60,000 bases of DNA from Strigamia acuminata (Eukaryota > Arthropoda > Chilopoda > Geophilomorpha > Linotaeniidae). This document shows positions 184-36,744 of this stretch, in pieces; the first letter of the stretch is position 1; every line of letters begins with the position of its first letter. The DNA is taken from assembly GCA_949358305.1 (NCBI GenBank), contig OX442320.1:10992259-11052258 (forward strand), written 5' to 3'. Position numbers and translations under genes: made by a program. The notes under the pieces are model-generated. The model saw only the letters and a program-made list of their open reading frames with translations, was not told the origin of the DNA and did not search any database.

Positions 184-3100
184 TTAATTTGGTTTTATCG
201 GATGTTGAAAAACTTTTTTTTCTATATTTCTTGCCACACTTAATATTGACAGACCTAGCGATAAACTTAAAATATTTCCGATGTCACATATGAATGAGAT
301 AATGTCATATTCAAGTCGGTCAATAAAAATTTTAATTTTGTTTGTTTCGAAAAAATGGCCTATTGTACTGGCTGAAATTCCTCTGCCACGTGTAGTTTGT
401 ACCAAGCTAGAGTACTTAGATTCTTTGCAAGGAATGTGACATTGACATTCATCTTTAACATTTGTGTCAAGAAAAGTTTTTTTGTAGATAGAATCGGTCG
501 TTTTCGCCGATTGAGAAGTGTTGCACATGGGATATTGCAGTTGGTCTATGTACGGTAATCTGGGGAGAGAAAAATTTTGTTAGCTATGATTTATTGATTT
601 GTGCATTTTACAAATCTGTTTTTGATATTCAAAGTGAAATGTGTGTGCTCAGTTAATCACTATTAAATTGATATGAAAGTTTCAGTCTAAAACTATAGGA
701 CTCGTTGTAATAACACCCTATCTTTGACTCTTTTTCCACCCAAGATTGACTTAAAATCTCCCAACTCAAAAAACTACAAGAAAACTATAGTTCTCTTCTT
801 ATGTTTACTTCCCCAAATTAAAGTTTCACATCCCAACATATTTATTCTAATTATTGCCAAATGTATCCCAATTTCGATTTTTATTTTTATTTTTATTGTA
901 AACATAATGCTTTCATAGCTTTCGATGATGTTTCTGATCGGTGGGTACAGTTTTCGCCTTTGGTGGTACGACAACAATATCTTGCAAATATTCATCTTTG
1001 CAAACACTGGGCATTTGCTTCTTCCATGGTTCAGTCACTGTTTTCAATCTTAATATACAACAAATGATGACTGGAACTTGCACATGCCCCATGTTTGCAA
1101 GGATGTACATTTGCAAGTCTGAAGCATCATCGAGGTATTGTGTTCTCAATAAAACTAAAAATAACAATTGCGGTACTTTGCAATAATTGGGAAGAAAATA
1201 TTGGGGTGTAAACCTTTTATAAGTCCTTCTTCGGGTAAAAGTCAAAGATGGAGAGTGAATAATTTGTTGCCAAAAAAATAACTAGAATTTGTGTGAATGT
1301 GAATAAATATTTTTCCTGATGTTTGGTTTAAGAAACTTGATATTTTTATGACTAGGTGCATATACTGAATGTCAATACAAACATACCGGCATGTTAATTT
1401 TTCAGTCAGTTTTTTGCGGTAACATTGCTTTTTGCACTGATAGAAATCGTTTGGTGGCATACATTTTCGTATTGGTGTATTTATGCGGTCAAACTATTAA
1501 TAAATTTTAAAAGAATATTTGTTAGTTTATATTTTTGTTAGTTCTCGTTGACCACTTGAGTCTAATTCCATTCTATTTGTAATATGCAGTTTAGCCATTA
1601 GTTTGTGGTTTAGGGTGGCTAGTGTTTTCGTCCATCTAACAATAGCTGATGTTGTGTTTTGCCAAACCTTGTTGTTGATTAAGTGCGTTATATGTTTGGC
1701 TGCACGCACCTTTTGTTACATGTTGCTAAAGAAAACGTTAATAAATGGTTACATTATGTCTTTATATCTTGTGTTAATTTACTGTTCTTTTGTACAGCCA
1801 TTGTCTAAAAGGTGCGTTCAATTTCAAAATGTGAAAAACCGATTATAAAAAGTTGATTACAAAATCGGTTTTTAACTTTGAACGAGTTAAAAACCGATTC
1901 TATAATCAAGTTTTTGATTATCTTGAGCATGTGCAGTTATGACTTAAGTGTAAGTACATTTGAATTATTATTTATTTATTTAAGACCTGGAAATCGGCCA
2001 AACACCCGCCGCATTTGCGCGATCGAATCGGCCGCTTTCGGTGGTGGTTTTGTTTCACATATACAGTCTGATGCGCATTACAGACGACAGTTTTCATTCC
2101 CGTAGTAAAATCAATCAAGATTTACTTATACGATGGTTAAAAAGTGCTTATTGTGTAAAAGCAACAGCAATAAAGACAAAAACCATTCTTTTTATGGATT
2201 TCCAAGCAATCCTATCATCAGAAAACAATGGATTAATTGGATTGCTAACACATTTGGCCATGAGAATGTGCAGGTGAATCAATGTCAGCCATTATGGATC
2301 CAACCTAAGCTCAGAACTAGTTCCAGGTCAACTGAACTAGAGAACTGACAACGTCATACTTCCATGATTCTTTGCCTTGTCAGCACCCGGTGTTGCAATT
2401 TTTATTAAACAATGATAAAAGCTCAAATTTTATTTTTTTCTAACATGAAAGTTTTTTTTATTAGGCTCTATCAGAAAAAAATAAAATCCACTCAGTGCAC
2501 TTGACCTTTAAACACGTGTAAGTTGAGGACCTAGTCTCCTGACATGTATCCTCGTGGCTTTCTCTATTTCAATGTTCAAAAACAATAATTTTCTTGCGAC
2601 CCATTTTGACCCATAAAAACTACTTCCTTGGAACATTGTGTAAAAGCAGTCGGGTAAATGGTTTTTTGAGTTTGGATCCAATTGATGTGTTGGACTAAAG
2701 TATGACGTATTCATGTTTTCTCACTTTTATCATGCGATACCCAACACCTACTGCGACGCCACCTCCGAATGGTAATAATCCATTTGAAGTCAAATCCAAA
2801 TCTTGATCTTCTCTTGTTGTTATGAAAAACTTTGTGATACATGACAATCAATTAACATGTGAAATTAAACGTCTGATTGATGTGCTTTTTTTTACCTCGT
2901 AGTATTGGTCACATAACATCAATGTAGGAGTCATGTATATTTTCACAAGCATTGTGGATTGGCCGTTGTACAGAGTTTCATCTTGACAAAAGTAAATTGT
3001 TATTCACTCATTTTCAGTAAAATCTATCATTCAATCAGTTAATCTGCATTTTGCATGTTTAGCGGACGATAAAATGTGTTAGACCATAAGATGTACTCCA

Positions 3101-6091
3101 AATTAATCAGTCAATTCTTAGAAAAAAAACTTTTTGAATGATAAGATGCATAGGACCGAAAGATTTAAAATTTTAAAATTTAATTTTTTACTATTTTCAT
3201 AATTGCCCGAATAAATTTTATGGGTTTTCCCCAGGTTTGCCATAAGTTTGGGTTGTAAGACGCACCCAACTTTTGGTCGACTTTTCAAAGTGCGTCTTAT
3301 GGTCTGCAAAATACAGCAATATAAAATAATAAGATAAAAAAATAATAAAATAATAAAACAAAAGAAATTGAAGGAAACTGAGTTAAATCGTATAGATCAA
3401 AAATTGTTGAAAGCATCTTGTCTACAATTTTTGATACAATAAATTATTTGTATTTAGGTGTCGATTGCAATAACAAGTTTGCTTCCAACAACTGATGCTA
3501 AGGTGGATAATAAGTAATTTTGGCAATTATTTACTGCAGCATGAATTTAAAGACATACCAATTAAGTAATGTGTACATATTCCTCTTGGGGTATTTATTT
3601 TAACATCTGTAAACTGTAACTGCAAAAAGATAACATTTATAAGATGACTCTAGTAAGTTGCAAAATCCTACTTACGAAATCAGCAAAGACTACAGCTTCT
3701 AAAGAGGAAGATTGCTCCCATAGTTCTTCTATTGTGAGGTTTTCTCCTTTTAGATCTAGTAGTCTCAACATGTGAATGGGACAATCACTCTGACTCAGAT
3801 TATTTTCATCGGCATACATATTCTCCAATTCAATAATTGGAGTATCCGTCATTACACAAGCTGTTATGTTTGGAAAGGTTACATTTGCTTCGTCCGCGAC
3901 TGCAATGTTTACTCGTATAGGATATGCCAGGTAAGTCGTCAATTTGAAATAGATCATGAGCAGAAAGAGAGAGGTGCAGCCGAAATAAACAACCTTTTCC
4001 AAGTTGTTTTGAATCCCGCTGCAAGGAATTGGCTCGTTTTCTTTCAGTAGGGATGAGATGTGGCTTTTTGATTTTTGCAGATAATGCCATACTTTATTGT
4101 GAATTCTACTATTGTTCCGTGACGTTGCATTACGTTTTCGATAATTGATGATTAATGTGATCAAATCCAAAACTGAAAGTATTGACATCCCGAGGTAAAG
4201 GCCAATGCTTCCGGCTGCATCAATGAGTAGATTGACAAATTGATAAGCAAATCTTTCTTTGATGACTTCAATGACAATTGATGCTGCTTCGTTTTCGTGT
4301 TCTGTCAATGGAGCATCTGATGTAGTAGATGTGAGATATTTTATCTGCTCTTCTATTTGAGTGCACATTCGGTTGCACAAGCACTTTAATTCTGAATTTT
4401 TTTTCCATAGTTGATTACGAATGCTCATGTACAGCAGTAGGGCATCGTAGGAAGTATTGCATGTGTCGCCCATCTTTCCACCCATAAATGGGAATCTAAA
4501 TAATCAATAATATTTAATTATATTAGTATTGTGTTTGTTCTCAAGTTCATTTTAAATGGTTATTCCTGTGTCTAAAGTGATCCCTCACCTGCAGGGTTGT
4601 TGACTGTAAAAATCTTGACGGCATTTCTCGTGACATTTTATAAAATCCTTTTTGTCAATGCATGGATTAGATGATGTATTCAGAAATAGAAACTATAATT
4701 ACATACGTAAAAAAATAATCAAGATTTGCAATGTACCCTATACACTGTCCCATGAACAAAGGATTATATGGACACATATTCGTATGTTATTTCCTTTTGA
4801 TTTATGGTTTTGTGTGCTGATTGGATGACCGCAGTCACGTGCCATGCATTGCTTGCTAACTAAGGATGTTTGTTATACAGTATATATTATGTAGTTCCAT
4901 TGGTGGCAAAACACTCTGAACATGTTATCTTTAGTTCATGACTGCAATCTGTAGCCCGTACATAGGACGGGTCCCAGGAAGTTATCTGGATGGGAAAGGG
5001 GATGTAGCATTGCTTGTCAGGACCCTAAATATGTTTTTATCAACATTTTGACTATTTTTCCTAAATTTTTACCTTTTTTTTATTGTTTCTTCTAACAAAG
5101 ATTACAGTACCCATAAAATGTATGTAATGTAACACTTTGGGGAAGACGATAGGGAAATTAATCAAATGGTGATGGTAAATACCTCTTGTAAACTAAATTT
5201 ACTTCTTATTACTTCATTTGAATTGACACCGGCTTCTAATTCAGATCTACCTGGAACAGGTCTTGACACCTATAATTTTAGTAAATTTTAATATTTTAAA
5301 TTTTCTTTTGTCATTGTAGTCAAACATATTTACGAAAAGTAGGCCCGGGGGACATAATTGTGGTCGATTGAACCACATTTTCAATTTGCCGTATAAATTT
5401 CGACCCGTAATATTTTCTAGAAAACACCAAATGACTCCGTGGTAGGAGTTTGTTGCAGTTATTGGTCGATCATAACTTACCAACCGTTATAACAGCGCAG
5501 GTTCCAAACGTGGTCAATTCTTTGCCTATTTGAATATTTGGTTTGTCCATAGATTTCTGTAAAAAGTCTGGTCGTGTTTTACATTTCAGTTGGCAAAATA
5601 AATTGAGATTTCCTTACCGAAATAAATTCCGTTTTGTTTACTACAGGTTGATCAATATCCCATAATGCAGACATGTTGACATTCTCATTAGCAATTAAAT
5701 TCACCAGAATACTTTCACACTCGTCCTCAGTTTTTGGTGTTGAGTTTAAAAACTTTTTCCACGCATGTATCTTGTATGTATTTTCACGCTGGCACACTTT
5801 CAGAGCTGGGAATGACATCTCAGTTGCGTCTCTCGTATACGCGTCAGTAGCGATGGGGTTCGAAAAGAAATATTTGATTTTCTGCCCAGTTTGATAGCAA
5901 CAGACTGCGAAGCAGCTCATTAGAAGTAAACTCCAAGCAAATTTGATTGTAGCGCTTTTCATGGGATCAATTAACGTTTGTAATTCTGGAAATGATTCCT
6001 CAAACATCCAAAGTCGTGTCATTTGTTGTTGTACAATTTTACGGATTTTAGACTTTAGCGCAGCTGCTTTCCTATTCATTGCAATCCTCAT
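184..6091 (-). CDS. Two-subunit (tandem-fused) DEG/ENaC channel gene, copy A
   Basis: Twelve minus-strand exons join in phase: 5618-6091, 5481-5556, 5183-5250, 4589-4692, 3676-4495, 3559-3619, 2896-2981, 2725-2829, 2624-2694, 2506-2563, 1387-1493 and 184-559. They total 2,406 nt, or 801 residues plus stop. All introns are GT..AG. The family forms trimeric amiloride-type Na+ channels; each subunit has two membrane segments and a Cys-rich ectodomain. Subunit 1 has TM1 at about 49-72, FPALKVC at 94-100, a Cys-rich finger exon and TM2 with the GMS filter at 343-345. Subunit 2 has TM1 at about 408-432, FPN near 448, CQCHIPC after residue 714 and the GLS filter at 779-781. Subunit 1 lacks a counterpart of the phase 0-to-0 block 2506-2829. 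The start (MRI) is chosen because it aligns with copy B; an in-frame ATG lies upstream at 6163. Exons 9 and 10 are the least certain, and no HG gating motif was seen. Confidence 0.8.
560..1386. other. Last intron of copy A
   Basis: Non-coding between exons 11 and 12. Ends match the homologous intron in copy B (9,795-10,468), but about 840-1,210 has no close counterpart there and carries short inverted words such as TTTGCAA/TTGCAAA. No gene seen. Confidence 0.5.
2133..2273 (+). pseudogene. THAP-type zinc finger exon fragment
   Basis: An open exon begins with MVKKCLLCK and continues with NHSFYGFP and RKQWINWI, ending at a CAG|GTGAAT donor. THAP domains are C2CH DNA-binding modules that start near the N-terminus with Cys-x2-4-Cys, then FxxFP and an invariant Trp; all these are visible. 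The second zinc pair (Cys-x2-His) and the AVPTY motif are not found downstream, so this is at most a first exon or a broken copy. It lies antisense inside an intron of DEG/ENaC copy A, in a block (about 1,545-2,480) absent from copy B, so it probably arrived with an insertion. P-element-type transposases and cellular regulators both use THAP domains. Confidence 0.5.
3060..3310. mobile_element. Intronic MITE-like inverted repeat shared by both channel copies
   Basis: An inverted pair built on GCGTCTTATGGTCTGCAAA and its complement (GACCATAAGA near 3,080; TAAGACGCACCC at 3,257) lies in the intron between exons 6 and 7. The same arrangement is at 12,345-12,622 in copy B, so it inserted before the gene duplication. 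Confidence 0.5.
3676..4495 (-). CDS. Fusion exon: subunit 1 C-terminus + linker + subunit 2 N-terminus
   Basis: This 820-nt exon has no internal stop. It starts after an AG acceptor in phase 2 and ends at a GTAAGT donor in phase 0. In order it encodes KCLCNRMC, the second membrane segment with GLYLGMS, a basic stretch (NYRKRN), about 45 residues of linker, then LEKVVYFGCTSLF (start of a new TM1), AYP, and VTFPNITAC. In known DEG/ENaC topology both termini are cytosolic, so a linker of this length can join two subunits without an extra membrane crossing. Copy B has the same exon, also exactly 820 nt, at 12947-13766. Confidence 0.9.
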
Positions 6092-9200: not shown

Positions 9201-10887
9201 TTAAAAAGTTGATAAATTATTATTGTGATTTATCCAGGAATAAATTGCTCGTGATTTTCGTTAGAATTGAATGAATTAGGTTGCATCACTCTATTTGATT
9301 TTGAGTCTAATTTCAGTAATTCGTATCAAATATTTGTGTGCAAATGGACAATATTTAGAAAATTTAGGTACATTTGTGAGGTAATGCTTTTATTTTTTTT
9401 TTATGTTGAAAACCCATCTGAATGATGTTATTGTTGGTGATGTTGAAAAATTAGTTTTTCCATTTTTCTTGCCACACTCAATATTGACAGACCTAGCGAT
9501 AAACTTAAAATATTTCCGATGTCACATATGAACGAGATAATGTCATATTCAAGTCGGTCAATAAAAATTTGAATTTTGTTTGTTTCGAAAAAATGGCCTA
9601 TCATAAAGGTCTGACTTTGGTGACGTGTAGATTGTTCCAAGCTAGAGTACTTCGATTCTTTGCAGGGAATGTGACATTGACAAGCATCTTTAACATTTGT
9701 GTCAAGAAAAGTCTTTTTGTAGATAAAATCAGTCGTTTTCGCCGATTGAGAAGTGTTACACATGGGATATTGCAGTTGGTCTATGTACGGTAATCTGGGA
9801 AGAGATAAATTTTGTTAGCTATGATCTAGTGGTTTGTGCGTTTTACAAATCTGTCTTCGGTATTCAAATGGAAATGTGTGCTCTGTTAATAATTATTAAA
9901 TTGATCTGAAAGTATCAGTCTAAATCGATAGGACCAGATTTAATGACTCCCTATCTTTGACTCATTTTACATCCAACTCAATAAACCCTTAATAAAACTA
10001 TAAGCTTAGTTCTCTTCTAATGTTTATTTATCCAAATAAAAGTTTCACATCCCAACATATTTACCCTAATTATTACCTTACGTACATACATTAACCAGAG
10101 GCAAAAACCATTTAAACCATTAACCAGAGGCAAAAACTGTATCCATCGGTCAGAAACACCATCGAACATTGTGTTCCTAATAAAACTAAAAACAAGAATT
10201 GGGGCACTTCGACAATAATTGGGGGGATAATGTCAGGGTGTAAAACCTTTTATTCAGGGGAATAAATATTAGTGGAGAACAATATTTTTAGTTGGGAGAC
10301 TTTAAGTCTTTCTTGGGGGGTAAAAGGAGTCAAAGATTGGGAGTGAATGATTTGTTGCCATAACAATAACTAGAATTTGTGTGAAAGAAGTGAATAATTA
10401 TTTTTTCTGATGTTTGGTTTAGGAAGTTTGATATTTTGATGACTAAGTGCATGCCAATACAAACATACCGGCAAGTTAATTTTTCATTCAGTTTTTTGCG
10501 GTAACATTGCTTTTTGCACTGATAGAAATCGTTTGGTGGCATACATTTTCGTATTGGTGTATTTATGCGGTCAAACTATTAATAAATTTAAAAAATATTT
10601 ATCAGTTTATATTTTAGTAATAATTACACATTGGCTACTTAGGCCAAGCTATGCTCTTATTGTTGTCTAATATTGTTTAATATGAACCTTTATTAACTTA
10701 TAATAAAAAATAAGATTAATAATGTATTCTTTAATTAGGGTGAACATTTTCCCATTGAACAAGTTCTTGGAACCATACTCCTTTGTAAGTCGAGGACAAG
10801 TTTCCTGACATGTATTCTCGTGGTTTTCTCTATTTCAACGTTCTTTGCGACCCATTACGACCCATAAAAACTACTCGCTTGGTACAC

Positions 10888-11573
10888 CCTAGGACGATTA
10901 CCTACAGGACTTCACATCTGCCATTTTTTTGAAATCTAAGTTGTTCTGTAGAAATGCGAATGAGCAGCAATCTGTCGTTGCATTGTTAAAACTTTTTGCG
11001 GGCAAATGGCGGACAATTGACATCCCACATTTACATTTCTGGAGGATGTTATAACATACCGTATTTTACCGAATAAGAGTCGTCCTCGAATTGTAGCCGC
11101 CCTTGAATAGTAGCCGCGGCCGAGATAGGCGACTTGATATAAGAGCCGCCCCCGAATAGTAGCCGCGGCTATATACGTTCAATGAACGTAACAGTAGGAT
11201 ATTGGCCACTATTTAAAATAAGAGCTGCCCCCGAATTAAAGCCGCAGCTCATAGTGGCAGTTTTGAATAAGAGCCGCGGCTCTTATTTGGTAAAATACGG
11301 TAGTTCAATTTTATTTAACGCTTGATTTAAAAATAATATCTAAAAATGTAATAAATAATTTTCAGATATTATTTTTAACTTAAACATAAAATATAAATGT
11401 CCTCCAAAAATCCAAATGCGGGATGTCATGTCAGTTGTCCGTCATTTGCCCGCAAAATGACGTCATTTTGTGCCGTTTCTGCTGAATGGTGCTACAATCA
11501 CAAGACAGAATCGCTTTACAGTCTAGCAATGAAATTGTGCTAGCTGTGAAGTCCTGTAGTAAATTGTCCTAGG
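10888..11573. mobile_element. Foldback/MITE element interrupting exon 9 of copy B
   Basis: Ends are inverted: CCTAGGACGATTACCTACAG at the left and its imperfect complement at the right (about 28 bp, continuing as a long imperfect inverted repeat inward). It is flanked by TACA on both sides (10,883-10,886; 11,574-11,577). Copy A is uninterrupted at the same site. A second element is nested inside. Confidence 0.85.
11059..11300. mobile_element. Nested TA-flanked MITE
   Basis: Terminal inverted repeats CCGTATTTTACCGAATAAGA and complement, flanked by TA on each side, as for Tc1/mariner-type insertions. The interior is made of GAATAGTAGCCGCGGC-like words. A related end occurs at 39,330-39,370. 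Confidence 0.8.
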
Positions 11574-11656
11574 TACATCGTATAAAAGCAGTCGGGTAAA
11601 TGGCTTTTTGAGCTTGGAACCAATTGATGTGTTTGACTAAAGTATATCGCGTTGAA

Positions 11657-11979
11657 CAGGTCGGATCACTTCATCGAATCCCGTTTTATCAAATTCTAAT
11701 TTTGTATCATTTTTTGAAATTTGTGAAAATGGGGGTTGTTTCATCGAATTTAAATTCCGCTCGGTACGTTTTATCGAATTTTCGGCCATCATGGGGGATG
11801 TTATTCACGTGGCTATGTGGTTAGGTTAGGTTGTGTTAGGTTGTTTTAGGTCAGGTTAGGTTAGGTTAGGTCAGTTTAGGTCAGGTCAGGTTAGGTTAGG
11901 TCAGGTCAGGTTATGTTGTTGGTTTTTGGATTTTTTTACTGTACCATTTCATCGATGAAACGGGATTCGATGAAGTGAC
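11657..11979. mobile_element. MITE with 9-bp target duplication in copy B intron 8
   Basis: The sequence CGCGTTGAA stands at 11,648-11,656 and 11,980-11,988. Inside, TCACTTCATCGAATCCCGTT at the left is repeated inverted at the right. Copy A has an empty site. A 9-bp duplication is typical of Mutator-like elements. The interior carries GGTTAGGTTAGG runs (11,820-11,920). Confidence 0.85.
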
Positions 11980-13794
11980 CGCGTTGAAGTTTTCTCACCT
12001 TTATTATGCGATACCCAATAGTTACTAAGACGCCACCTTCGAATGGTAATAATCCATTTGAAGTCAAATCCAAATCTTGGTCTTCTCTTGTTGTTATGAA
12101 AAACTTTGTGATACATGACAATCAATTAACATATGAAATTAAATGTCTGATTGATGTCCTATTTTTTTACCTCGTAGTATTGGTCACATAACATCAATTT
12201 AGGAGTCTCGTAATTTTTCACAAGCATTGTGGCTTGGCCGTTGTACAGAGTTTCATCTAGAAAAAAAGAGGAATTGTGACTAAATTGTTACTCACTCATT
12301 TTTAGTAAAATCCATCATTCAATCAGTATATCGGCATTTTGCCTATTTTGCGGACAATAAAATGTGTTGGACCATGAGATATAACCCAAATTTATTCTTA
12401 GAAAAAATATTTTTTAAAAATTTAAAATATAAAATTTAAAATTTAATTTTTTATTATTTTTTTTATAATTGCCCGAATTATTTTCATGGGAATGCCTGAA
12501 TTAATTGTAAGGGATTCTTCAGACTTGCTATAAATTTGGATTTTAAGACGCACTTTGAACCTTAAAACGCACCCAACTTTGGTCGACTTTTCAAAGTGCG
12601 TCTTATGGTCTGCAAATTACGGTAATGTAAAATAATATTAAAAACAAAAGAAGTCGAAGGAAACTGAGTTAAATCGTATAGATTGAAAAATGTCAAAAGC
12701 ATTTTGTATTTGTATTGAGGTGTCCATTGTAATAACAAGTTTGCTTCCAATACTGTGCCACTCGATGGGAAGGATAATAAGTAATTTTAGCAATCATCTA
12801 TTGCAGATTGAATAGTTAAGGACACACCAATTAAGTAATGTGTACATATTCCTCTTGGGGTATTTATTTTAACGTCTGAAAATTGTATCTGTCAAAAGGT
12901 AACATTTATAAGATGACTATCTGGTAAGTTGCTTAATTCTACTTACTAAATTATAGGGGATTATACTTTTTGAAGAGGAAGATTGCTTCCATAATTCTTC
13001 TACTGTGAGGTTTTTTCCTTTTAGATCTAGTAGGCTCAACTTGTGAATGGGACAATCACTCTGACTCAGATTATTTTCATCAGCATACATATTCTCTAAT
13101 TCAATAATTGTCGGATTCGTTATTATGCAAGCTGTTAAGTTTGGAAAGGTTACATTTGCTTCGTCGGCGACTTCAATGTTTGCTCGAATGGGATATGCCA
13201 TGTAAGTCATCAATTTGAAATAGATCATGACCAGAAACAGAGAGGTGCAGCCGAGATAAACAACCTTTTCCAATATGTTTTGAATACGGCTGCAAGGAAT
13301 TGGTTCGTTTTCTTTCAGTAGGGATGAGAAATGGCCTTTAGTCTTTTGCAGAAAGTGCCATACTTTGAAGTGAATTCTACTATTGTTCAGTGACGTTGCA
13401 TTACGTTTTCTATAATTGATGATTAATGTGACTAAATCCAAAACTGAAAGTATCGACATCCCGAGGTAAAGGCCAATGTTTCCGGCTGCATCAATGAGTA
13501 GATTGACAAATCCATAAGCAAATCTTTCTTTGATGACTTCAATGACAATTGATGCTGCTTCGTTTTCGTGTTCTGTCAACGGGGCATCTGATGTAGTAGA
13601 TGTGAGATATTTTATCTGCTCTTCTATTTGAGTGCACATTCGGTTGCACAAGCACTTTAATTCTGAATTTTTTTTCCATAGTTGATCACGAATGCTCACG
13701 TACAGCATTAGGGCACCAGAGGAAGTATTGCATGTGTCGCCCATCTTTCCACTCATAAATGGGAATCTAAATAATCGATAATATTTAATTATAT

Positions 13795-14048
13795 TGTGGA
13801 GTTTTTTGGGTTTGAAGGTTGATAACGATCGCTAGAGGGCGGGCGGACATACACAAATATGTCCGATAGACGTTTTCGGGGAAAAACAGCCAATTGGGCT
13901 GTTCCTTGGGGTCAGCCAATCAGAGCTGACCAATGCGATATATAAAGAGGGTTTGTTTGTGAATAAAGTTACTTGAAATTTAACTAAGCTTGTGGTCGTG
14001 TCTTGGTAATTTCGGGTCAGTTAATCTCAGTGTTTGAGATAGTTTACA
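13795..14048 (+). mobile_element. Solo LTR in copy B intron 4
   Basis: A 254-bp insertion starts TG and ends CA, is flanked by ATAT on both sides, and is absent from copy A. Inside are two CCAAT words (13,915-13,935), TATATAAAG (13,939-13,947) and an AATAAA (13,962-13,967), the order expected for an LTR promoter and poly(A) signal. No internal retrotransposon coding region is present, so it is a solo LTR left by recombination. Confidence 0.8.
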
Positions 14049-15112
14049 ATATTAGTATTGTGTTTGTTCTCAAATTCATTTTAAATGGTTATTCCTGTGT
14101 GTAAACTGATCCCTCACCTGCATGGTTGTTGATTGTAAAAATCTTGAAGGCATTTCTTGTGACATTTGATAAAATTCTTTTCGTCAATGCATGGATTAGA
14201 TGATGTATTCAGAAATATAAACTATAATTACATTTGTAAAAAAAATCAAGATTTGCAATGTACCCTATACACTGTACCATGGACACACATATCCGTGTGT
14301 TATTTCTTTTTGATTCGTGGTTTTGTGTGCTGATTGGATGACCGCAATAATGTGTCATGCATTGCTTGCTAACTAAGAATGTTTGTTATTTGCATCCCAG
14401 AATGCACTGTGGCTAAACATATTATGTTGAACCATTGGTGACAAAAAACTCTGAACATGTTATCCTTAGTTCATGACTTTACTATGTAGACCGGTTGTAG
14501 GAAGGGTCCCAGGAAGTCGTCTCGATGGGAGGGGGGATGTGACATTGCTTGTCAGGACACTAAATCTGTTTTTTTTTCAACATTTTGACTATTTTTTTAA
14601 AATTTTTACCATTTTTGGTAGTTTCTTTTAACAAATATCGTACTGTACTCATAAAGTGTTTGTGACATAACACCTTGGGAAAGACTGTAGGGAAATTAAT
14701 CAAATGGTGATGGTAAATACCTCTTGTAAACTGAATTTCTTTCTTATTACTTCATTTGAACTAGCAGTGATTGGTATATCAGATCTACCTGGAATAGGGC
14801 TTGACACCTATAATTTTATTTGAATGTTTGAAATTTGCTTTTGTCATTGTAGGCAATATATTTACTAAAAGTACACCTGGGGGACATAATTGTGGTCGAT
14901 TGAACCACATTTTCAATTTGCCATATAAATTTTGAACCTTAATATTTTCTAGAAAACACCAAATGACTCCTTAGAAGGAGTTTATTGCAGTTAATTGTCG
15001 ATCAGATCTTACCAACTGTTATCACAGCGCAGGTTCCATATATGGACAATTCATTCCTTATTTTGATATTTGGTTTGTCCATTGATTTCTGTAAGAAATC
15101 TGCAGTTTTATA

Positions 15113-15629
15113 GGTACGGCAACTATTCATCGCCCGATTTCTCATCGCGCGACTATTCATCGTTGCTAAGTCATCGCGCGGACAAGTCATCGCGCGGCCA
15201 ACTCATTGCGCAGTCAAGTCATCGCGTGAAAAGTAATCGCGTGACCAACTAATCGCGCCGACAACTGGACGGTTGTCAAGTAATCGCGCGATTTATCGCA
15301 CTTCAAAATTTTAAATAATTTTGTGTTTTTAAGATGTTTTAGGTGTGTTACAACGTAAACTTCAATGGGGCCCCACATCTAGCGCTACATAATCTACCGC
15401 GACACGATCTACCGCAACAATCCGTCCTTAAAAAATGGTTTTTATATAAAAAAAACCAGTAAGGTTAGGTTCGCGGGAATCAAGGGAATCAAGGGGGGAC
15501 GCAGCCCCCCCTTGTTAGCCCCTCCCCCCCTTCTTAGGAATTAGACAAAGATAAACGTAGTCGCAGTTTCAAAAGTCGCTGTAGATCGTGTCGCAGTAAG
15601 ATCGTGGCGCGATGAATAGTCGTGGATTT
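15113..15629. mobile_element. hAT-type MITE in copy B intron 1
   Basis: An 8-bp duplication GTTTTATA at 15,105-15,112 and 15,630-15,637 brackets the element, and ACTATTCATCGC occurs inverted at both ends. The copy A intron is 61 bp against 583 bp here. The left third is a run of related ~18-bp words with AAGTCATCGCGCG. The 8-bp duplication fits hAT elements. Confidence 0.85.
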
Positions 15630-16151
15630 GTTTTATATCATAGTTGGCAAAATAAATTGGGTTTTCCTTACCGAAATAAATTCAGTTTTGTTTAATACAG
15701 GATGATCAATATCCCATAATGCAGTCAAGTTGACATTTTTATTCTCGATTAACTTGTATAGATTGTTTATACAATCACGTGAAGTTGGTGGTGTTGAGTG
15801 TAAAATATTTTTCCACGCATGTCGTACGTATTTGTTTTCAGTCGTGCATACTTTGAAAACTGGGAATGACATCTCCGTTTCATCAATCGTGTACGCGTCA
15901 GTAGCGATGGGGTTTGAAAAGAAATATTTGATTTTCTGCCCAGTTTGATAGCAGCAGAGTGCGAGGCAGCTTGTTAAAAGTAAACTCCAAACAAATTTGA
16001 TTTTAGCGCTTTTAATGGGATCAATTAACGTTTGTAATTCTGGAAATGATTTCTCAAACATCCAAAGTCGTACCATTTGTTGTTGTACAATTTTATGCAT
16101 TTTATACTTTACCGCAGCTGCAACTGCATTCTTTCTCATTACAATCCTCAT

Positions 16152-17273: not shown

Positions 17274-17398
17274 CACTGTACAAGTGAGATAAATTAAGAA
17301 TTTAATTTCTTGCATCAACATGAAAGCATTAGGAGAACCAAACGAAGATCCACCAGCTAAATAAGGAGCAGCAATAATACACAGTTAGTGTAAACTGT

Positions 17399-17806
17399 AA
17401 CTTCCCAAACTTTCCAAACTTTTTTTGGCACTTCCTTGACTCACCCCTAAGACACTCACCAAGTTTCAGCATCTCACACCTTCTGATACTTGAGTTACTC
17501 ACTCCCAAACAGTGCAACTTTTTTCGAACATTTCAACTTTTTCAGAAATTGCAACCCGACTTCAAACACCCATAAAAAGAAAACCATACACAGGAAACTT
17601 CCCAAACTTTTTTTGGCACTTCCTTGACTCACCCCTAAGACACTCACCAAGTTTCAGCACCTCACACCTTCTGATACTTGAGTTACTCACTCCCAAATAT
17701 AGCAACTTTTTCAGAAATTGCAACCCGACTTCAAACACCCGTAAAAAGAGAACCATACACAGGAAACTTCCCAAACTTTTTTGGCATTTTCTTGACTCAC
17801 CCCTAA
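17399..17806. repeat. 169/188-bp satellite, left block
   Basis: Head-to-tail units containing CTTCCTTGACTCACCCCTAA and CACACCTTCTGATACTTGAG. The short form lacks a ~19-bp TTTTTCGAACATTTCAAC segment. The first unit is diverged. ORFs across it are repeat artefacts. Confidence 0.95.
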
Positions 17807-18692
17807 AGGTGGGTTCACACTTGAAAGTAAAGTAAGGTAAAGTAAAGTAAGCTCAGATAAAGTAGAAGTAAGGTAACGCAAGTGTGTTCACACTTGTTTG
17901 AAGTTAAAGTAAGGATTATCTAATTTTGCAATTGCACTTTTTTGTAAAACTTTTACATATAACTAAAAGTGTTTCTAAATTTTTATTTCTTGTGTGGGTG
18001 TTTGTGTTTTTTTTCTACCTCCCTGCGCGCCTCGTCAAAGCGATGTTTGGCCGCATTCAATTGCAAAAATGCGGCCGATGTTCCGCCACATTTCCGCGAT
18101 CGAATGCAGCCGATGTTCGGCCGCATTTGAGCGATTGAATACGGCCGATGTTCCGCCACATTTCCACGATCGAATGCGGCCGATTTTCGGCCGCATTTGA
18201 GCGATCGAATGCGGCCGAACATCTCCCGCATTTGTGCGATTGAATGCGGGCGAACATCGCCCGCATTTGTGCAATCGAATGCGGGCGATGTTTGGCGAAC
18301 ATTTCGCAAAAACGTCGCAAAAACGTCGCGAATAATGATTAAAAATACCTCGCAAAAACGTCGCGAACACGTCGTGAATAACGAATAAAGATACATCGCG
18401 AATATTTCGCGAAAACATTGCGAAACCGTCGCGAATAACGAATAAAAACGTTGCTAATAATGGCGGCGAATTTAGTCTCGTTCAGTCTCGTTTAGTTTAA
18501 CCTTCTCGCGAGATTAAGACTGTTCCTGATTGGCTGGAAGTAAGCTTGCTGCGTTGCGTTACTTCCTACTTCAAAACAAATTTGAAGTAGCTTTTTTCTT
18601 ACTTTACTGCAAAAGCAATCCAACAATGCAATGCGCAGCTACATTGCGTTCCGTTACTTCATAGTGTGAACACAAGTGTGAACCAACCTCGT
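17807..18692. mobile_element. ~886-bp TIR element in satellite, copy 1
   Basis: Ends share inverted GGTTCACACTTG, with AGGTGGGTTCACACTTG at the left and its complement near 18,670-18,690. Interior: AAGTAAAG-rich subterminal repeats, about seven ~38-bp units built on GCGGCCGATGTTCGGCCGCA, then AACGTCGCGAATAACG repeats. No transposase frame is seen, so it is non-autonomous. It splits a satellite unit between CCCCTAA and GACACTCACC. Confidence 0.8.
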
Positions 18693-21600
18693 GACACTCA
18701 CCAAGTTTCAGCACCTCACACCTTCTGATACTTGAGTTACTCACTCCCAAACATAGCAACTTTTTCAGAAATTGCAACCCGACTTCAAACACCCATAAAA
18801 AGAGAACCATACACAGGAAACTTCCCAAACTTTTTTTGGCACTTCCTTCACTCACCCCTAAGACACTCACCAAGTTTCAGCACCTCACACCTTCTGATAC
18901 TTGAGTTACTCACTCCCAAATATAGCAACTTTTTCAGAAATCGCAACCCGACTTCAAACACCCATAAAAAGAGAACCATACACAGGAAACTTCCCAAACT
19001 TTTTTTGGCACTTCCTTGACTCACCCCTAAGACACTCACCAAGTTTCAGCATCTCACACCTTCTGATACTTGAGTTACTCACTCCCAAACAGTGCAACTT
19101 TTTTCGAACATTTCAACTTTTTCAGAAATTGCAACCCGACTTCAAACACCCATAAAAAGAGAACCATACACAGGAAACTTCCCAAACTTTTTTTGGCACT
19201 TCCTTGACTCACCCCTAAGACACTCACCAAGTTTCAGCACCTCACACCTTCTGATACTTGAGTTACTCACTCCCAAATATAGCAACTTTTTCAGAAATCG
19301 CAACCCGACTTCAAACACCCATAAAAAGAGAACCATACACAGGAAACTTCCCAAACTTTTTTTGGCACTTCCTTGACTCACCCCTAAGACACTCACCAAG
19401 TTTCAGCATCTCACACCTTCTGATACTTGAGTTACTCACTCCCAAACAGTGCAACTTTTTTCGAACATTTCAACTTTTTCAGAAATTGCAACCCGACTTC
19501 AAACACCCATAAAAAGAGAACCATACACAGGAAACTTCCCAAACTTTTTTTGGCACTTCCTTGACTCACCCCTAAGACACTCACCAAGTTTCAGCACCTC
19601 ACACCTTCTGATACTTGAGTTACTCACTCCCAAACACTGCAACTTTTTTCGAACATTTCAACTTTTTCAGAAATTGCAACCCGACTTCAAACACCCATAA
19701 AAAGAGAACCATACACAGGAAACTTCCCAAACTTTTTTTGGCACTTCCTTGACTCACCCCTAAGACACTCACCAAGTTTCAGCACCTCACACCTTCTGAT
19801 ACTTGAGTTACTCACTCCCAAACAGTGCAACTTTTTTCGAACATTTCAACTTTTTCAGAAATTGCAACCCGACTTCAAACACCCATAAAAAGAGAACCAT
19901 ACACAGGAAACTTCCCAAACTTTTTTTGGCACTTCCTTGACTCACCCCTAAGACACTCACCAAGTTTCAGCATCTCACACCTTCTGATACTTGAGTTACT
20001 CACTCCCAAACAGTGCAACTTTTTTCGAACATTTCAACTTTTTCAGAAATTGCAACCCGACTTCAAACACCCATAAAAAGAGAACCATACACAGGAAACT
20101 TCCCAAACTTTTTTTGGCACTTCCTTGACTCACCCCTAAGACACTCACCAAGTTTCAGCATCTCACACCTTCTGATACTTGAGTTACTCACTCCCAAACA
20201 GTGCAACTTTTTTCGAACATTTCAACTTTTTCAGAAATTGCAACCCGACTTCAAACACCCATAAAAAGAGAACCATACACAGGAAACTTCCCAAACTTTT
20301 TTTGGCACTTCCTTGACTCACCCCTAAGACACTCACCAAGTTTCAGCACCTCACACCTTCTGATACTTGAGTTACTCACTCCCAAACACTGCAACTTTTT
20401 TCGAACATTTCAACTTTTTCAGAAATTGCAACCCGACTTCAAACACCCATAAAAAGAGAACCATACACAGGAAACTTCCCAAACTTTTTTTGGCACTTCC
20501 TTGACTCACCCCTAAGACACTCACCAAGTTTCAGCATCTCACACCTTCTGATACTTGAGTTACTCACTCCCAAACAGTGCAACTTTTTTCGAACATTTCA
20601 ACTTTTTCAGAAATTGCAACCCGACTTCAAACACCCATAAAAAGAGAACCATACACAGGAAACTTCCCAAACTTTTTTTGGCACTTCCTTGACTCACCCC
20701 TAAGACACTCACCAAGTTTCAGCACCTCACACCTTCTGATACTTGAGTTACTCACTCCCAAACACTGCAACTTTTTTCGAACATTTCAACTTTTTCAGAA
20801 ATTGCAACCCGACTTCAAACACCCATAAAAAGAGAACCATACACAGGAAACTTCCCAAACTTTTTTTGGCACTTCCTTGACTCACCCCTAAGACACTCAC
20901 CAAGTTTCAGCACCTCACACCTTCTGATACTTGAGTTACTCACTCCCAAACAGTGCAACTTTTTTCGAACATTTCAACTTTTTCAGAAATTGCAACCCGA
21001 CTTCAAACACCCATAAAAAGAGAACCATACACAGGAAACTTCCCAAACTTTTTTTGGCACTTCCTTGACTCACCCCTAAGACACTCACCAAGTTTCAGCA
21101 CCTCACACCTTCTGATACTTGAGTTACTCACTCCCAAACACTGCAACTTTTTTCGAACATTTCAACTTTTTCAGAAATTGCAACCCGACTTCAAACACCC
21201 ATAAAAAGAGAACCATACACAGGAAACTTCCCAAACTTTTTTGGCATTTTCTTGACTCACCCCTAAGACACTCACCAAGTTTCAGCACCTCACACCTTCT
21301 GATACTTGAGTTACTCACTCCCAAACATTTCAACTTTTTCAGAAATTGCAACCCGACTTCAAACACCCATAAAAAGAGAACCATACACAGGAAACTTCCC
21401 AAACTTTTTTTGGCACTTCCTTGACTCACCCCTAAGACACTCACCAAGTTTCAGCACCTCACACCTTGATACTCACTCCCAAACACAGCTACTTTTTTCG
21501 AACATTTCAACTTTTTCAGAAATTGCAACCCGACTTCAAACACCCATAAAAAGAGAACCATACACAGGAAACTTCCCAAACTTTTTTTGGCACTTCCTTG

Positions 21601-22136
21601 ACTCACCCCTAAGACACTCACCAAGTTTCAGCACCTCACACTTTCTGATACTTGAGTTACTCACTGTCAAATATAGCAACTTTTTCAGAAATTGCAACCC
21701 GACTTCAAACACCCATAAAAAGAGAACCATACACAGGAAACTTCCCAAACTTTTTTTGGCACTTCCTTGACTCACCCCTAAGACACTCACCAAGTTTCAG
21801 CACCTCACACCTTCTGATACTTGAGTTACTCACTCCCAAACACTGCAACTTTTTTCGAACATTTCAACTTTTTCAGAAATTGCAACCCGACTTCAAACAC
21901 CCATAAAAAGAGAACCATACACAGGAAACTTCCCAAACTTTTTTGGCATTTTCTTGACTCACCCCTAAGACACTCACCAAGTTTCAGCACCTCACACCTT
22001 CTGATACTTGAGTTACTCACTCCCAAACATAGCAACTTTTTCAGAAATTGCAACCCGACTTCAAACACCCGTAAAAAGAGAACCATACACAGGAAACTTC
22101 CCAAACTTTTTTGGCATTTTCTTGACTCACCCCTAA
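18693..22136. repeat. 169/188-bp satellite, central block
   Basis: About 19 head-to-tail units, mostly 188 bp (spacing 188 between repeated words at 19,449, 19,825, 20,013, 20,201). Units fall into types by the word before GCAAC or GCTAC: AGTGCAAC, ACTGCAAC, ATAGCAAC (169-bp form) and ACAGCTAC. Types alternate in places, indicating higher-order structure. Confidence 0.95.
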
Positions 22137-23022
22137 AGGTGGGTTCACACTTGAAAGTAAAGTAAGGTAAAGTAAAGTAAGCTCAGATAAAGTAGAAGTA
22201 AGGTAACGCAAGTGTGTTCACACTTGTTTGAAGTTAAAGTAAGGATTATCTAATTTTGCAATTGCACTTTTTTGTAAAACTTTTACATATAACTAAAAGT
22301 GTTTCTAAATTTTTATTTCTTGTGTGGGTGTTTGTGTTTTTTTTCTACCTCCCTGCGTGCCTCGTCAAAGCGATGTTTGGCCGCATTCAATTGCAAAAAT
22401 GCGGCCGATGTTCCGCCACATTTCCGCGATCGAATGCAGCCGATGTTCGGCCGCATTTGAGCGATTGAATACGGCCGATGTTCCGCCACATTTCCACGAT
22501 CGAATGCGGCCGATTTTCGGCCGCATTTGAGCGATCGAATGCGGCCGAACATCTCCCGCATTTGTGCGATTGAATGCGGGCGAACATCGCCCGCATTTGT
22601 GCAATCGAATGCGGGCGATGTTTGGCGAACATTTCGCAAAAACGTCGCAAAAACGTCGCGAATAATGATTAAAAATACCTCGCAAAAACGTCGCGAACAC
22701 GTCGTGAATAACGAATAAAGATACATCGCGAATATTTCGCGAAAACATTGCGAAACCGTCGCGAATAACGAATAAAAACGTTGCTAATAATGGCGGCGAA
22801 TTTAGTCTCGTTCAGTCTCGTTTAGTTTAACCTTCTCGCGAGATTAAGACTGTTCCTGATTGGCTGGAAGTAAGCTTGCTGCGTTGCGTTACTTCCTACT
22901 TCAAAACAAATTTGAAGTAGCTTTTTTCTTACTTTACTGCAAAAGCAATCCAACAATGCAATGCGCAGCTACATTGCGTTCCGTTACTTCATAGTGTGAA
23001 CACAAGTGTGAACCAACCTCGT
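22137..23022. mobile_element. ~886-bp TIR element in satellite, copy 2
   Basis: Sequence matches 17,807-18,692 at a constant offset of 4,330 bp. The only difference I noticed is C at 18,028 against T at 22,358. Flanking satellite units are also shared at the same offset, so this copy arose by segmental duplication, not a new insertion. Confidence 0.9.
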
Positions 23023-25408
23023 GACACTCACCAAGTTTCAGCACCTCACACCTTCTGATACTTGAGTTACTCACTCCCAAACATAGCAACTTTTTCAGAA
23101 ATTGCAACCCGACTTCAAACACCCATAAAAAGAGAACCATACACAGGAAACTTCCCAAACTTTTTTTGGCACTTCCTTCACTCACCCCTAAGACACTCAC
23201 CAAGTTTCAGCACCTCACACCTTCTGATACTTGAGTTACTCACTCCCAAATATAGCAACTTTTTCAGAAATCGCAACCCGACTTCAAACACCCATAAAAA
23301 GAGAACCATACACAGGAAACTTCCCAAACTTTTTTTGGCACTTCCTTGACTCACCCCTAAGACACTCACCAAGTTTCAGCATCTCACACCTTCTGATACT
23401 TGAGTTACTCACTCCCAAACACTGCAACTTTTTTCGAACATTTCAACTTTTTCAGAAATTGCAACCCGACTTCAAACACCCATAAAAAGAGAACCATACA
23501 CAGGAAACTTCCCAAACTGTTTTTGGCACTTCCTTGACTCACCCCTAAGACACTCACCAAGTTTCAGCACCTCACACCTTCTGATACTCACTCCCAAACA
23601 CAGCTACTTTTTTCGAACATTTCAACTTTTTCAGAAATTGCAACCCGACTTCAAACACCCATAAAAAGAGAACCATACACAGGAAACTTCCCAAACTTTT
23701 TTTGGCACTTCCTTGACTCACCCCTAAGACACTCACCAAGTTTCAGCACCTCACACCTTCTGATACTCACTCCCAAACACAGCTACATTTTTCGAACATT
23801 TCAACTTTTTCAGAAATTGCAACCCGACTTCAAACACCCATAAAAAGAGAACCATACACAGGAAACTTCCCAAACTTTTTTTGGCATTTCCTTGACTCAC
23901 CCCTAAGACACTCACCAAGTTTCAGCACCTCACACCCTCTGATACTTGAGTTACTCACTCCCAAACACAGCTACTTTTTTCGAACATTTCAACTTTTTCA
24001 GAAATCGCAACCCGACTTCAAACACCCATAAAAAGAGAACCATACACAGGAAACTTCCCAAACTTTTTTTGGCATTTCCTTGACTCACCCCTAAGACACT
24101 CACCAAGTTTCAGCACCTCACACCCTCTGATACTTGAGTTACTCACTCCCAAACACAGCTACTTTTTTCGAACATTTCAACTTTTTCAGAAATCGCAACC
24201 CGACTTCAAACACCCATAAAAAGAGAACCATACACAGGAAACTTCCCAAACTTTTTTTGGCATTTCCTTGACTCACCCCTAAGACACTCACCAAGTTTCA
24301 GCACCTCACACCCTCTGATACTTGAGTTACTCACTCCCAAACACAGCTACTTTTTTCGAACATTTCAACTTTTTCAGAAATTGCAACCCGACTTCAAACA
24401 CCCATAAAAAGAGAACCATACACAGGAAACTTCCCAAACTTTTTTTGGCACTTCCTTGACTTACCCCTAAGACACTCACCAAGTTTCAGCACCTCACACC
24501 TTCTGATACTCACTCCCAAACACTGCAACTTTTTTCGAACATTTCAACTTTTTCAGAAATCGCAACCCGACTTCAAACACCCATAAAAAGAGAACCATAC
24601 ACAGGAAACTTCCCAAACTTTTTTTGGCACTTCCTTGACTCACCCCTAAGACACTCACCAAGTTTCAGCACCTCACACTTTCTGATACTTGAGTTACTCA
24701 CTCCCAAATATAGCAACTTTTTCAGAAATCGCAACCCGACTTCAAACACCCATAAAAAGAGAACCATACACAGGAAACTTCCCAAACTTTTTTTGGCACT
24801 TCCTTGACTCACCCCTAAGACACTCACCAAGTTTCAGCACCTCACACTTTCTGATACTTGAGTTACTCACTCCCAAACACAGCTACTTTTTTCGAACATT
24901 TCAACTTTTTCAGAAATCGCAACCCGACTTCAAACACCCATAAAAAGAGAACCATACACAGGAAACTTCCCAAACTTTTTTTGGCACTTCCTTGACTCAC
25001 CCCTAAGACACTCACCAAGTTTCAGCACCTCACACTTTCTGATACTTGAGTTACTCACTCCCAAATATAGCAACTTTTTCAGAAATCGCAACCCGAATTC
25101 AAACACCCATAAAAAGAGAACCATACACAGGAAACTTCCCAAACTTTTTTTGGCACTTCCTTGACTCACCCCTAAGACACTCACCAAGTTTCAGCACCTC
25201 ACACTTTCTGATACTTGAGTTACTCACTCCCAAACACAGCTACTTTTTTCGAACATTTCAACTTTTTCAGAAATCGCAACCCGACTTCAAACACCCATAA
25301 AAAGAGAACCATACAAAGGAAACTTCCCAAACTTTTTTGGCACTTCCTTGACTCACCCCTAAGACACTCACCAAGTTTCAGCACCTCGCACCTTCAGATA
25401 CTTGAGTT
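23023..25408. repeat. 169/188-bp satellite, right block
   Basis: About 13 units. The ACAGCTAC type dominates from 23,590 on, and several units lack ACTTGAGTT after GATACT, so this block has its own homogenised variants. Confidence 0.95.
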
Positions 25409-31289: not shown

Positions 31290-32152
31290 ACAAATTAAAA
31301 ATACAAAACAAAAATACAAACAAAAATACAAATTAAAAATACAAAACAAAAATACAAACAAAAATACAAATTAAAAATACAAATAAAAAAATAATAATAC
31401 AACAAAAAATACAAAAATACAAATAAAAAATACAAACAAAACTACAAATAAAAAAATACAAACAAAACTACAAATAAAAAATACAAATAAAAAAATAATA
31501 ATACAACAAAAAATACAAAAATACAAATAAAAAATACAAATACAAATACAAATAAAAAAATAATAATACAACAAAAAATACAAAAATACAAATAAAAAAT
31601 AATAATACAACAAAAAATACAAAAATACAAATAAAAAAATAATAATACAACAAAAAATACAAAAATACAAATAAAAAATAATAATACAACAAAAAATACA
31701 AAAATACAAATAAAAAAATAATAATACAACAAAAAATACAAAAATACAAATAAAAAATAATAATACAACAAAAAATACAAAAATACAAATAAAAAAATAA
31801 TAATACAACAAAAAATACAAAAATACAAATAAAAAATACAAACAAAACTACAAATAAAAAATACAAATAAAAAAATAATAATACAACAAAAAATACAAAA
31901 ATACAAATAAAAAATACAAATACAAATACAAATAAAAAAATAATAATACAACAAAAAATACAAAAATACAAATAAAAAATAATAATACAACAAAAAATAC
32001 AAAAATACAAATAAAAAAATAATAATACAACAAAAAATACAAAAATACAAATAAAAAATAATAATACAACAAAAAATACAAAAATACAAATAAAAAAATA
32101 ATAATACAACAAAAAATACAAAAATACAAATACAAAATACAAATACAAATAC
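31290..32152. repeat. A-rich minisatellite
   Basis: More than twenty copies of a ~35-bp unit of the type AATACAAATAAAAAATAATA plus ACAACAAAAAATAC, nearly free of G, ending where titin-like coding sequence begins. Minus-strand ORFs rich in Phe/Tyr/Leu/Ile across it are artefacts. Confidence 0.95.
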
Positions 32153-32156
32153 AATA

Positions 32157-35570: not shown

Positions 35571-35649
35571 AATGGATTAATGGATAAATAGATTAATTAA
35601 TTAATTAATGCGCACATTTGTTGAATTGATTCATTGTGTTTGTAAACGA

Positions 35650-35960
35650 CAGGTGTTTTGGACCAACCAACACTCCAAGGCCATTCTCAGCCACATCGTG
35701 CCCAACTTGACGCTCCAGAACGCCGCCAGTCGCTTGCGCCGAGTACGGAGACGGTCTTTCAAAGAGGTGGTCACGAAATCACGAATCTGATGGAACCGCG
35801 CAGCATCGCCGTCGATTGGGTCGGCAAACACATTTATTGGGTCGACTCTGGCGCCGGTAGTATCGGGATGGCAAATTTGGACGGATCGCAGAGGAAAACG
35901 TTGATTGCCGATTTATTGGACAAACCGCACGACGTCGTCGTTGCCCCCGAATCAAAGTCT
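35650..35960 (+). pseudogene. LRP-like YWTD beta-propeller piece
   Basis: The frame contains QVFWTNQHSKAI, then (from about 35,766) ITNLMEPRSIAVDWVGKHIY with WVDSGAGSIGMANLDGSQRK and a DKPHDVVVAPESK end. This is the classical repeat of LDL-receptor propellers, where Tyr/Trp-Val/Thr-Asp starts a blade. Only about two blades of six are present. It stops in an AT-rich stretch near 35,960; dynein coding starts at 36,118 with no further LRP exon. Confidence 0.8.
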
Positions 35961-36744
35961 GTTGAAAAATTTAATTTAATTTTAACGTTTAATTTTTTTT
36001 TAAATTTTTTTAAAATGGTGTGCCGATACCGGGTCGATCGGCCCACACTCACGCCGCGTTCGGCCGAAAACACCGCAGAAAAACGTGAAAAACAATTCTA
36101 CTTTTATCTTTTCCTAGGTAATCGAATTGGCTATGAAATCGTACGCCGAAAAGACGCGGGAAGAATGGGTTTTTATCTGGCCGGGTCAGCCCACCCTGTG
36201 CATAAGTCAATACTACTGGACCGCGGACATCCACGAAGCCATCGCGGAAGGCCAAGCCGCTCTGGAGCGTTATCTGTCGGTCAATAACGACCAGATCGAC
36301 AAAATAGTTCAATTAGTTGGCGGGAATCTGACGAAACAAGTGCGGACCACGCTCGGAGCGTTGGTGGTGCTCGATGTGCACGCCAGGCACGTGTTGGTGC
36401 TGATTGTGGCGGCGCAGATCACGAACGACAACGATTTCATGTGGTTGTTGCAACTGAGGTATTACTGGGAGGAAGAGAATGTGCTGACGCGCATGATCAA
36501 CTCGTCTCTGAATTACGGCTACGAATATGTGGGAAACACGCCGCGCTTGGTGATCACGCCGCTCACCGATCGCTGTTACGGACTCTGTTTGGTGCGCTGC
36601 AGCTGTTTCTCGGCGGGGAAAACGGAAACGACCAAGGATTTGGCCAAGGCCATAGCTAATTATTGCGTCGTGTTTAACTGCTCGGACGGATTGGATTACA
36701 TCGCGTTGGGCAAGTTCTTTAAGGTAAGGTTTCGGCATAGGCAA

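Follow-up and report, generated by a model that had tools for sequence, protein, structure and literature searches.

The 60,000-nucleotide (nt) stretch of the Strigamia acuminata genome analysed here (contig OX442320.1, positions 10,992,259 to 11,052,258 of the forward strand; hereafter the window) carries a gene at 184..6091 on its minus strand, named gene A, which very probably encodes one four-pass protein with two DEG/ENaC channel subunits in series and belongs to a large family of such fused genes in this centipede. The polypeptide would run from a cytosolic N terminus through a first transmembrane segment (TM1), an extracellular domain (ECD1) and a second transmembrane segment (TM2) into a basic cytosolic linker, followed by TM1', a second extracellular domain (ECD2) and TM2'. 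According to published descriptions, each DEG/ENaC subunit has two membrane helices (PMC3583452) and the channels are trimers assembled from individual subunits (PMC10148893); gene A departs from this description in placing two subunits and four predicted helices on one chain. The spliced model of gene A comprises the following features, given in window positions.

184..6091, minus strand: gene A, tandem-subunit DEG/ENaC, 11 exons, 792 amino acids (spliced model; Pfam ASC, 2.3e-28)
5618..6091, minus strand: exon 1, 474 nt, N terminus of subunit 1, TM1 (5953-5897) and FPALKVC motif
5481..5556, minus strand: exon 2, 76 nt, ECD1
5334..5416, minus strand: exon 3, 83 nt, ECD1
5183..5269, minus strand: exon 4, 87 nt, ECD1
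4589..4692, minus strand: exon 5, 104 nt, ECD1
3676..4495, minus strand: exon 6, the fused exon, 820 nt, end of ECD1, TM2 (4227-4171, GMS filter) and linker
within 3676..4495, minus strand: downstream part of exon 6, TM1' of subunit 2 (4002-3946) and FPNITAC motif
4003..4140, minus strand: linker between the subunits, residues 394-439, basic, without methionine and without stop codon
3559..3619, minus strand: exon 7, 61 nt, ECD2
2896..2981, minus strand: exon 8, 86 nt, ECD2
2725..2829, minus strand: exon 9, 105 nt, ECD2
1387..1493, minus strand: exon 10, 107 nt, ECD2
184..559, minus strand: exon 11, 376 nt, end of ECD2, TM2' of subunit 2 (291-235, GLS filter) and stop codon

All 10 introns of this model are of the GT...AG type, and the frame of 2379 nt encodes 792 residues and a stop codon. 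The initial annotation, which had proposed one gene encoding two covalently joined subunits, gave 12 exons and 801 residues; the rebuilt model contains 11 exons and 792 residues, and the range previously labelled exons 4-6 (4,692 to 3,559) corresponds to exons 5-7. The placement of the subunit join inside a single uninterrupted 820-nt exon was confirmed, as exon 6 (4495-3676) is open throughout. Its open frame spans 288 codons, and a random frame of such length is estimated to occur at about 2e-9 per starting point at a guanine-cytosine content of 37.5%. The spliced aligner returned identical exons when given the gene A protein; this checks the aligner and adds no independent support.

The hydrophobicity analysis, with peaks called in a 19-residue window at a mean of 1.5, revealed four peaks in gene A (residues 47-65, 365-383, 440-458, and 758-776), consistent with the four membrane segments first proposed. 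At the same threshold, the neighbouring paralogue (gene B) likewise showed four peaks, and the models of three distant members (L038, L039, and L042) showed 5, 3, and 3 peaks, respectively. GxS is the selectivity-filter motif, and a motif of the FP-x4-C type after TM1 is characteristic of the DEG/ENaC family. Both predicted filters were found, GMS at residue 377 and GLS at residue 770, one in each TM2; the post-TM1 motif was also present in both halves, with the spacing FP-x4-C (FPALKVC and FPNITAC) and not FP-x3-C as first written. The Pfam ASC domain (PF00858) matched the whole protein in three stretches (E 2.3e-28), and it also matched frame by frame in exon 1 (8.4e-10), the fused exon (6e-10), and exon 11 (1.1e-9). 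Over 352 aligned positions, the two halves share 79 residues (22% identity). Two complete homologous pore-forming subunits lie in one uninterrupted natural frame. By domain, the halves are DEG/ENaC subunits, and the predicted polypeptide as a whole falls outside the usual description of the family as one subunit with two helices, there being four segments and two subunits per frame in both gene A and gene B. No Rfam match was found in the window, and the search of the 792-residue model against a global protein collection, which is taken to lack such animal proteins, gave 5402 candidates and none at E <= 0.001.

Gene B lies upstream of gene A on the same strand.

9428..16151, minus strand: gene B, paralogue with the same 11-exon model, 791 amino acids (Pfam ASC, 6.5e-24)
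12947..13766, minus strand: fused exon of gene B, 820 nt

Counterparts of all 11 exons of gene A were found in gene B in the same order, its 791-residue frame is intact, and the two fused exons are about 9 kb apart. Two partial copies were also observed next to these genes. Just upstream of gene A, a shortened copy of the start of exon 1 (6659-6525, minus strand) reads MRIV...KSKIRKIMQQQ and then diverges; over 135 nt it shares 87% identity with the stretch at the beginning of gene B, its frame has no Pfam match, and it is probably the remnant of another gene copy. Downstream of gene B, the 3' end of exon 11 occurs a second time as a partial copy (9114-9017, minus strand) with 73% identity.

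The arrangement recurs throughout the genome assembly (237,517,015 bases in 157 contigs). The protein search with the fused exon of gene A yielded at least 140 matches with 23-100% identity, and that with a distant member yielded at least 143, of which 33 judged by eye not to overlap with the first set were kept and the other 110 were dropped. When a match was required to cover TM2 and the following TM1, 132 and 28 loci were counted, giving at least 160 loci, genes A and B included, that span the TM2-linker-TM1 join; 150 of the 160 are free of stop codons in the matched stretch, and the other 10 carry in-frame stops. The counted loci are spread over seven contigs, with 60 on contig C6 and 43 on contig C1, and the figure of 160 is a lower bound since only the best candidates were scored in the searches. 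Candidates outside this count were mostly fused as well (five of six fetched). From a cluster of second-half-like TM2 exons on contig C5 that had no fused-exon match in the searches, one gene (L075) was read and proved to have an open exon of 822 nt in which TM2, a linker, and TM1 follow one another. Among five other frames, chosen by a PF00858 match in an open frame of at least 283 residues, four (L077-L080) also run TM2-linker-TM1; the fifth (L076) was rejected as a fused exon, being a first exon with TM1 only, located upstream of the single gene L004.

A sample of 29 members (2 from the window and 27 others) was aligned, and all 29 were continuous across the join with 20-84% identity to gene A. 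Cysteines and TM2 glycines were among the invariant columns, as were P and C in the second post-TM1 motif; in the first post-TM1 motif, P and C were invariant in all six first exons compared. A second-half-type TM2 exon was found downstream of 126 of the 160 fused exons, on the same strand and within 30 kb (median 2.3 kb; 110 within 5 kb). This pairing required that no other counted fused exon lie in between, had no chance control, and drew on the matches of two queries (all 150 listed from one and 86 of 150 from the other). These results indicate that the tandem-subunit family is large, old, and diversified, extending well beyond the single gene first noted.

No sign of triple-subunit concatemers was detected, the nearest neighbouring counted fused exons being 4.6 kb apart. 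Three fused-exon copies on contig C4 (C4:3023084-3050592), about 13 kb apart, scored 366.7 bits each, and another trio (C6:2863787, C6:2938112, and C3:11014335) scored 78.9 bits each; such equal scores suggest very recent duplications in both trios.

The exon structure points to how the fusion may have arisen. The intron phases of gene A are 0,1,0,0,2 before the fused exon and 0,1,0,0,2 after it. Both halves share a plan of six exon parts, in which the fused exon combines the terminal TM2 exon of one subunit with the initial TM1 exon of the following subunit. The same double series was found in L038, whose fused exon is 50% identical to that of gene A, with one extra terminal micro-exon, and in both halves of L042, once spurious micro-exons within and ahead of its first half are disregarded. 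The series was also recovered in the second halves of L039 and L040, with a spurious exon added, and in the first half of L041. Because the aligner, a custom script, inserts spurious micro-exons into distant loci, with implausible ones in the first halves of L037 and L039, only the gene parts named here are relied on. Control scores on unrelated, antisense, and reversed DNA were 86-124 for the gene A query and 52-66 for the profile, against at least 365 and at least 380 at the true loci. The profile was partly built from L037, L039, and L042, so that only L040, L041, and L075 serve as outside tests; when each half was aligned separately with a profile made from A, B, and L038 alone, scores at the six distant loci were 224-518 versus 115-165 for reversed DNA.

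The eight best PF00858 matches in the genome (L001-L008) were taken as single genes. They end 7 to 20 residues past the matched TM2 stretch, none lies less than 198 kb from a counted fused exon, and the contig of L004 has no counted fused exon. In the partly resolved single genes L002, L005, and L008, the TM1 exon ends in phase 0 and the last exon starts in phase 2. A tree was built from 29 first halves, 19 second halves, and these 8 single genes (118 columns). All 19 sampled second halves formed one clade (support 100/99; 100% of 200 bootstrap trees), and subgroups matching by eye were seen in both halves, namely {A, B, L020, L062, L038}, {L037, L042, L046, L061}, {L047, L048, L051, L052, L055}, and {L054, L059}. 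The support of these subgroups was mostly high, with two second-half groups at 89/79 and 83/24. L050 joins {L054, L059} in the first-half tree only, its second half not having been fetched, and the pairing of L059 with its second half, which spans about 21 kb, is assumed.

Because the second halves form a single clade and mostly mirror the first-half subgroups, the most likely history is a single ancient fusion, after which the joined halves were mostly duplicated together, with a common origin of the sampled second halves. In the proposed sequence of events, two tandem single-subunit genes of the same exon plan would have fused, the stop codon of the first and the intervening DNA being lost so that its TM2 exon became continuous with the next TM1 exon, and the fused unit would then have been duplicated largely whole.

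The linker and the flanking membrane segments were compared across the sample. In alignment columns, the linker is 37-53 residues long (median 48) in all 29 members, and it is net positive in all 29 and variable in sequence. Its basic character fits a cytosolic stretch joining two subunits whose termini are both cytosolic. The ratios of nonsynonymous to synonymous substitution rates (dN/dS) among 18 close copies (the stop-free ones of 20; 2 with a stop codon were left out) were 0.66 before TM2, 0.30 in TM2, 0.60 in the linker, 0.26 in TM1', and 0.36 after TM1'; between genes A and B, the ratio of the linker was 0.25, calculated from few sites. These values indicate purifying selection on the join, of modest strength in what appears to be a fast-evolving family.

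The filter motif was located in 28 of 29 first halves (27 GxS and 1 GxA) and in 18 of 19 second halves (17 GxS and 1 AxS). Within the TM2 motif D-x-G-G-x6-G-x-S, the second glycine is G in all 28 located first halves and in all 8 single genes, and the same position in the located second halves is N (17 of 18) or S (1 of 18). The first halves of L077-L080 also have G at this position, as does N_L062, which was missed by the motif pattern (it begins with E) and has a visible GMS; in C_L061 the motif was not located, and the fetched stretch ends early. The leading D of the motif, which we take to align with Asp433 of chicken ASIC1, is kept in nearly all members. Asp433 is described as a gate residue (PMC10148893). 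Judged by these residues, both halves look like working pore domains that are not interchangeable.

Several results weigh against one chain, one fusion, and joint inheritance of the halves. Methionine occurs in 20 of the 29 sampled linkers, permitting an internal start of a free second subunit. The dN/dS between genes A and B was 0.63 overall, 0.90 in the first segment, and 1.35 in the last. For 34 of the 160 fused exons no second-half exon was found; these include members too distant for both queries, L040 among them, whose second half was recovered by the spliced aligner. The aligner did not find the first half of L040 or the second half of L041 in the DNA stretch searched. In the tree, the first halves were not separated from the single genes, and the second half of L062 grouped with gene B (97/83) while its first half fell outside A, B, and L020 (100/96), so that copies have probably exchanged sequence and the halves have not always moved together. 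The AlphaFold model of the fused exon from the 29-row alignment was poor (mean predicted local distance difference test score, pLDDT, 57.5; predicted template modelling score, pTM, 0.27) and has no bearing on assembly.

The linker methionines speak for a rival explanation in which the frame is fused and yet two separate subunits are made, through an internal promoter, an alternative poly(A) site, an internal translation start, or proteolysis of the linker. The basic and variable linker sequence would also suit it, and a Drosophila DEG/ENaC gene is described as being co-transcribed in an operon-like manner (PMC2827562). However, the linkers of genes A and B lack methionine, and the next methionine of gene A lies inside TM1', so that a free second subunit would be truncated. 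The argument that a linker without methionine precludes a free second subunit holds for these two genes and was rejected as a general rule, given the methionines elsewhere. In addition, an open join at 150 of 160 loci would not be needed if the halves were released apart, and a linker length of 37-53 residues is kept even in members only 20-28% identical to gene A. Separate subunits are therefore considered unlikely, and a single tandem chain is preferred.

It is far less probable that genes A and B are decaying copies in a functionless pseudogene family. The high dN/dS between them (0.63, and 1.35 in the last segment), the stops at 10 of the 160 counted loci, and the degenerate fragments near both genes could be read in this way, but the window holds two intact 11-exon genes and 150 of 160 counted loci are stop-free. 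Moreover, cysteines, TM2 motifs, and half-specific residues are kept across members 20-28% identical, and the five fused-exon segments of the 18 copies gave dN/dS values of 0.26-0.66. Misjoined tandem genes are common in automatic annotation, and gene A lies within a duplicated stretch. Nevertheless, an artefact of gene prediction or assembly, with two adjacent single genes read as one, is scarcely credible and, insofar as the assembly (quality value 59.6; PMC10556566) is trustworthy, is refuted by the DNA itself, because the join lies inside one open exon independent of splice prediction and recurs at 160 counted loci on seven contigs as well as in genes found without fused-exon queries.

The closest solved structures were BRTNaC1 and PDPNaC1, matched by the fused exon at 7.5e-30 and 2.1e-23 and by the second-half TM2 exon at 1.9e-13 and 8e-12; gene A matched PDPNaC1 at 1.8e-14 over residues 45-399. 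Both channels are reported from centipede antennae, one as a proton-dependent heat receptor and the other as a proton-gated sodium channel forming a homotrimer (PMC12714832; PMC12804983); the homotrimer is PDPNaC1 (PMC12714832). They are single-subunit chains of 421-431 residues, whereas gene A has two subunits per chain. Each half of gene A resembles ASIC, ENaC, FaNaC, and pickpocket proteins in having TM1, a cysteine-rich ectodomain, TM2 with GxS, and FP-x4-C. In the related genome of S. maritima, sodium transport and taste are reported as enriched among lineage-specific duplicates, and no opsins were reported (PMC4244043). Since the closest solved relatives are centipede antennal channels and the S. 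maritima duplicates show this enrichment, a sensory role is likely by analogy. We infer that the product is made as one chain and forms cation channels.

Two-pore-domain potassium channels and two-pore channels (TPC) are natural fusions or duplications of subunits that need fewer chains per pore. Their pores are four-fold or pseudo-four-fold, and two-domain chains fill them evenly. The DEG/ENaC pore, in contrast, is three-fold, so that two-domain chains leave a remainder. Engineered ASIC1a concatemers also join DEG/ENaC subunits head to tail; trimeric and tetrameric constructs are reported as functional, and pH and amiloride values are also tabulated for dimeric ones (PMC4529235). Their function suggests that a tandem is physically workable, although they are laboratory constructs of one identical subunit, whereas gene A is natural, with subunits about 22% identical in a fixed order.

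The constraint on stoichiometry proposed in the initial annotation is a sound expectation for such a tandem. As a guess, the favoured arrangement, with about even chances, is a three-fold pore in which the tandem occupies two positions and either a single subunit or one domain of a second tandem takes the third. By the same kind of guess, a six-domain assembly of three tandems is doubtful, a pseudo-tetramer of two tandems somewhat more so, and cleavage of the linker to release free subunits is improbable. Three-fold pores cannot be filled evenly by two-subunit chains, so that the family allows a direct test of assembly, the question being what fills the third place or whether the pore is three-fold at all; it is a natural test case for how such channels assemble.

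This centipede is an eyeless soil predator. It is somewhat less likely than not that more than 160 tandem receptors with two permanently different pore domains, giving an asymmetric pore and not a simple homotrimer, form a main receptor repertoire of this animal. If so, an obligate third single subunit would serve as a shared co-receptor, or the channel would be a dimer of tandems or a six-domain assembly. The fused genes may also amount to a sensory receptor family that is large and has gone unrecognised. Annotation practice treats the presence of two ASC domains in a single gene model as an error, which could have hidden such a family. DEG/ENaC stoichiometry has so far been probed with artificial concatemers (PMC4529235), and evolution seems to have made one and kept it through more than 100 duplications and large divergence.

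The initial annotation knew of no described natural concatemer. This agrees with our search of one open-access library, in which no natural DEG/ENaC concatemer was found; preprints and most subscription papers lay outside the search, and the agreement is not proof of absence. The main text of a DEG/ENaC review (PMC10148893) contains no concatemer, fusion, fused, or tandem; that of the S. maritima genome paper (PMC4244043) does not mention ENaC, pickpocket, degenerin, or amiloride; and the paper on six new myriapod genomes (PMC9151784) has no ENaC, sodium channel, pickpocket, or amiloride.

The TTAGG telomere repeat is typical of arthropods. In this genome it gave thousands of matches, including the start of contig C1, compared with 2 for TTAGGC and 0 for TTAGGG. 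Beside gene B, a large satellite-like array (17301-25325) repeats at intervals of about 188 nt, with intervals of 169 and 179 nt also present and many units 96-100% identical; two frames inside it (17983-18453 and 22313-22783) share one translation, and the one checked had no Pfam match. A low-complexity repeat (31371-32328, minus strand) contains frames giving FFICIFVFFVVLL-like strings. Further along the window, dynein heavy chain exons were identified at 36118-37424 on the plus strand (Pfam AAA_6, 2.4e-50 and 6.6e-22). A low-density lipoprotein receptor class B repeat (35646-36287, plus strand; 1.2e-12) lies directly upstream of the dynein-like frames and overlaps them in another frame.

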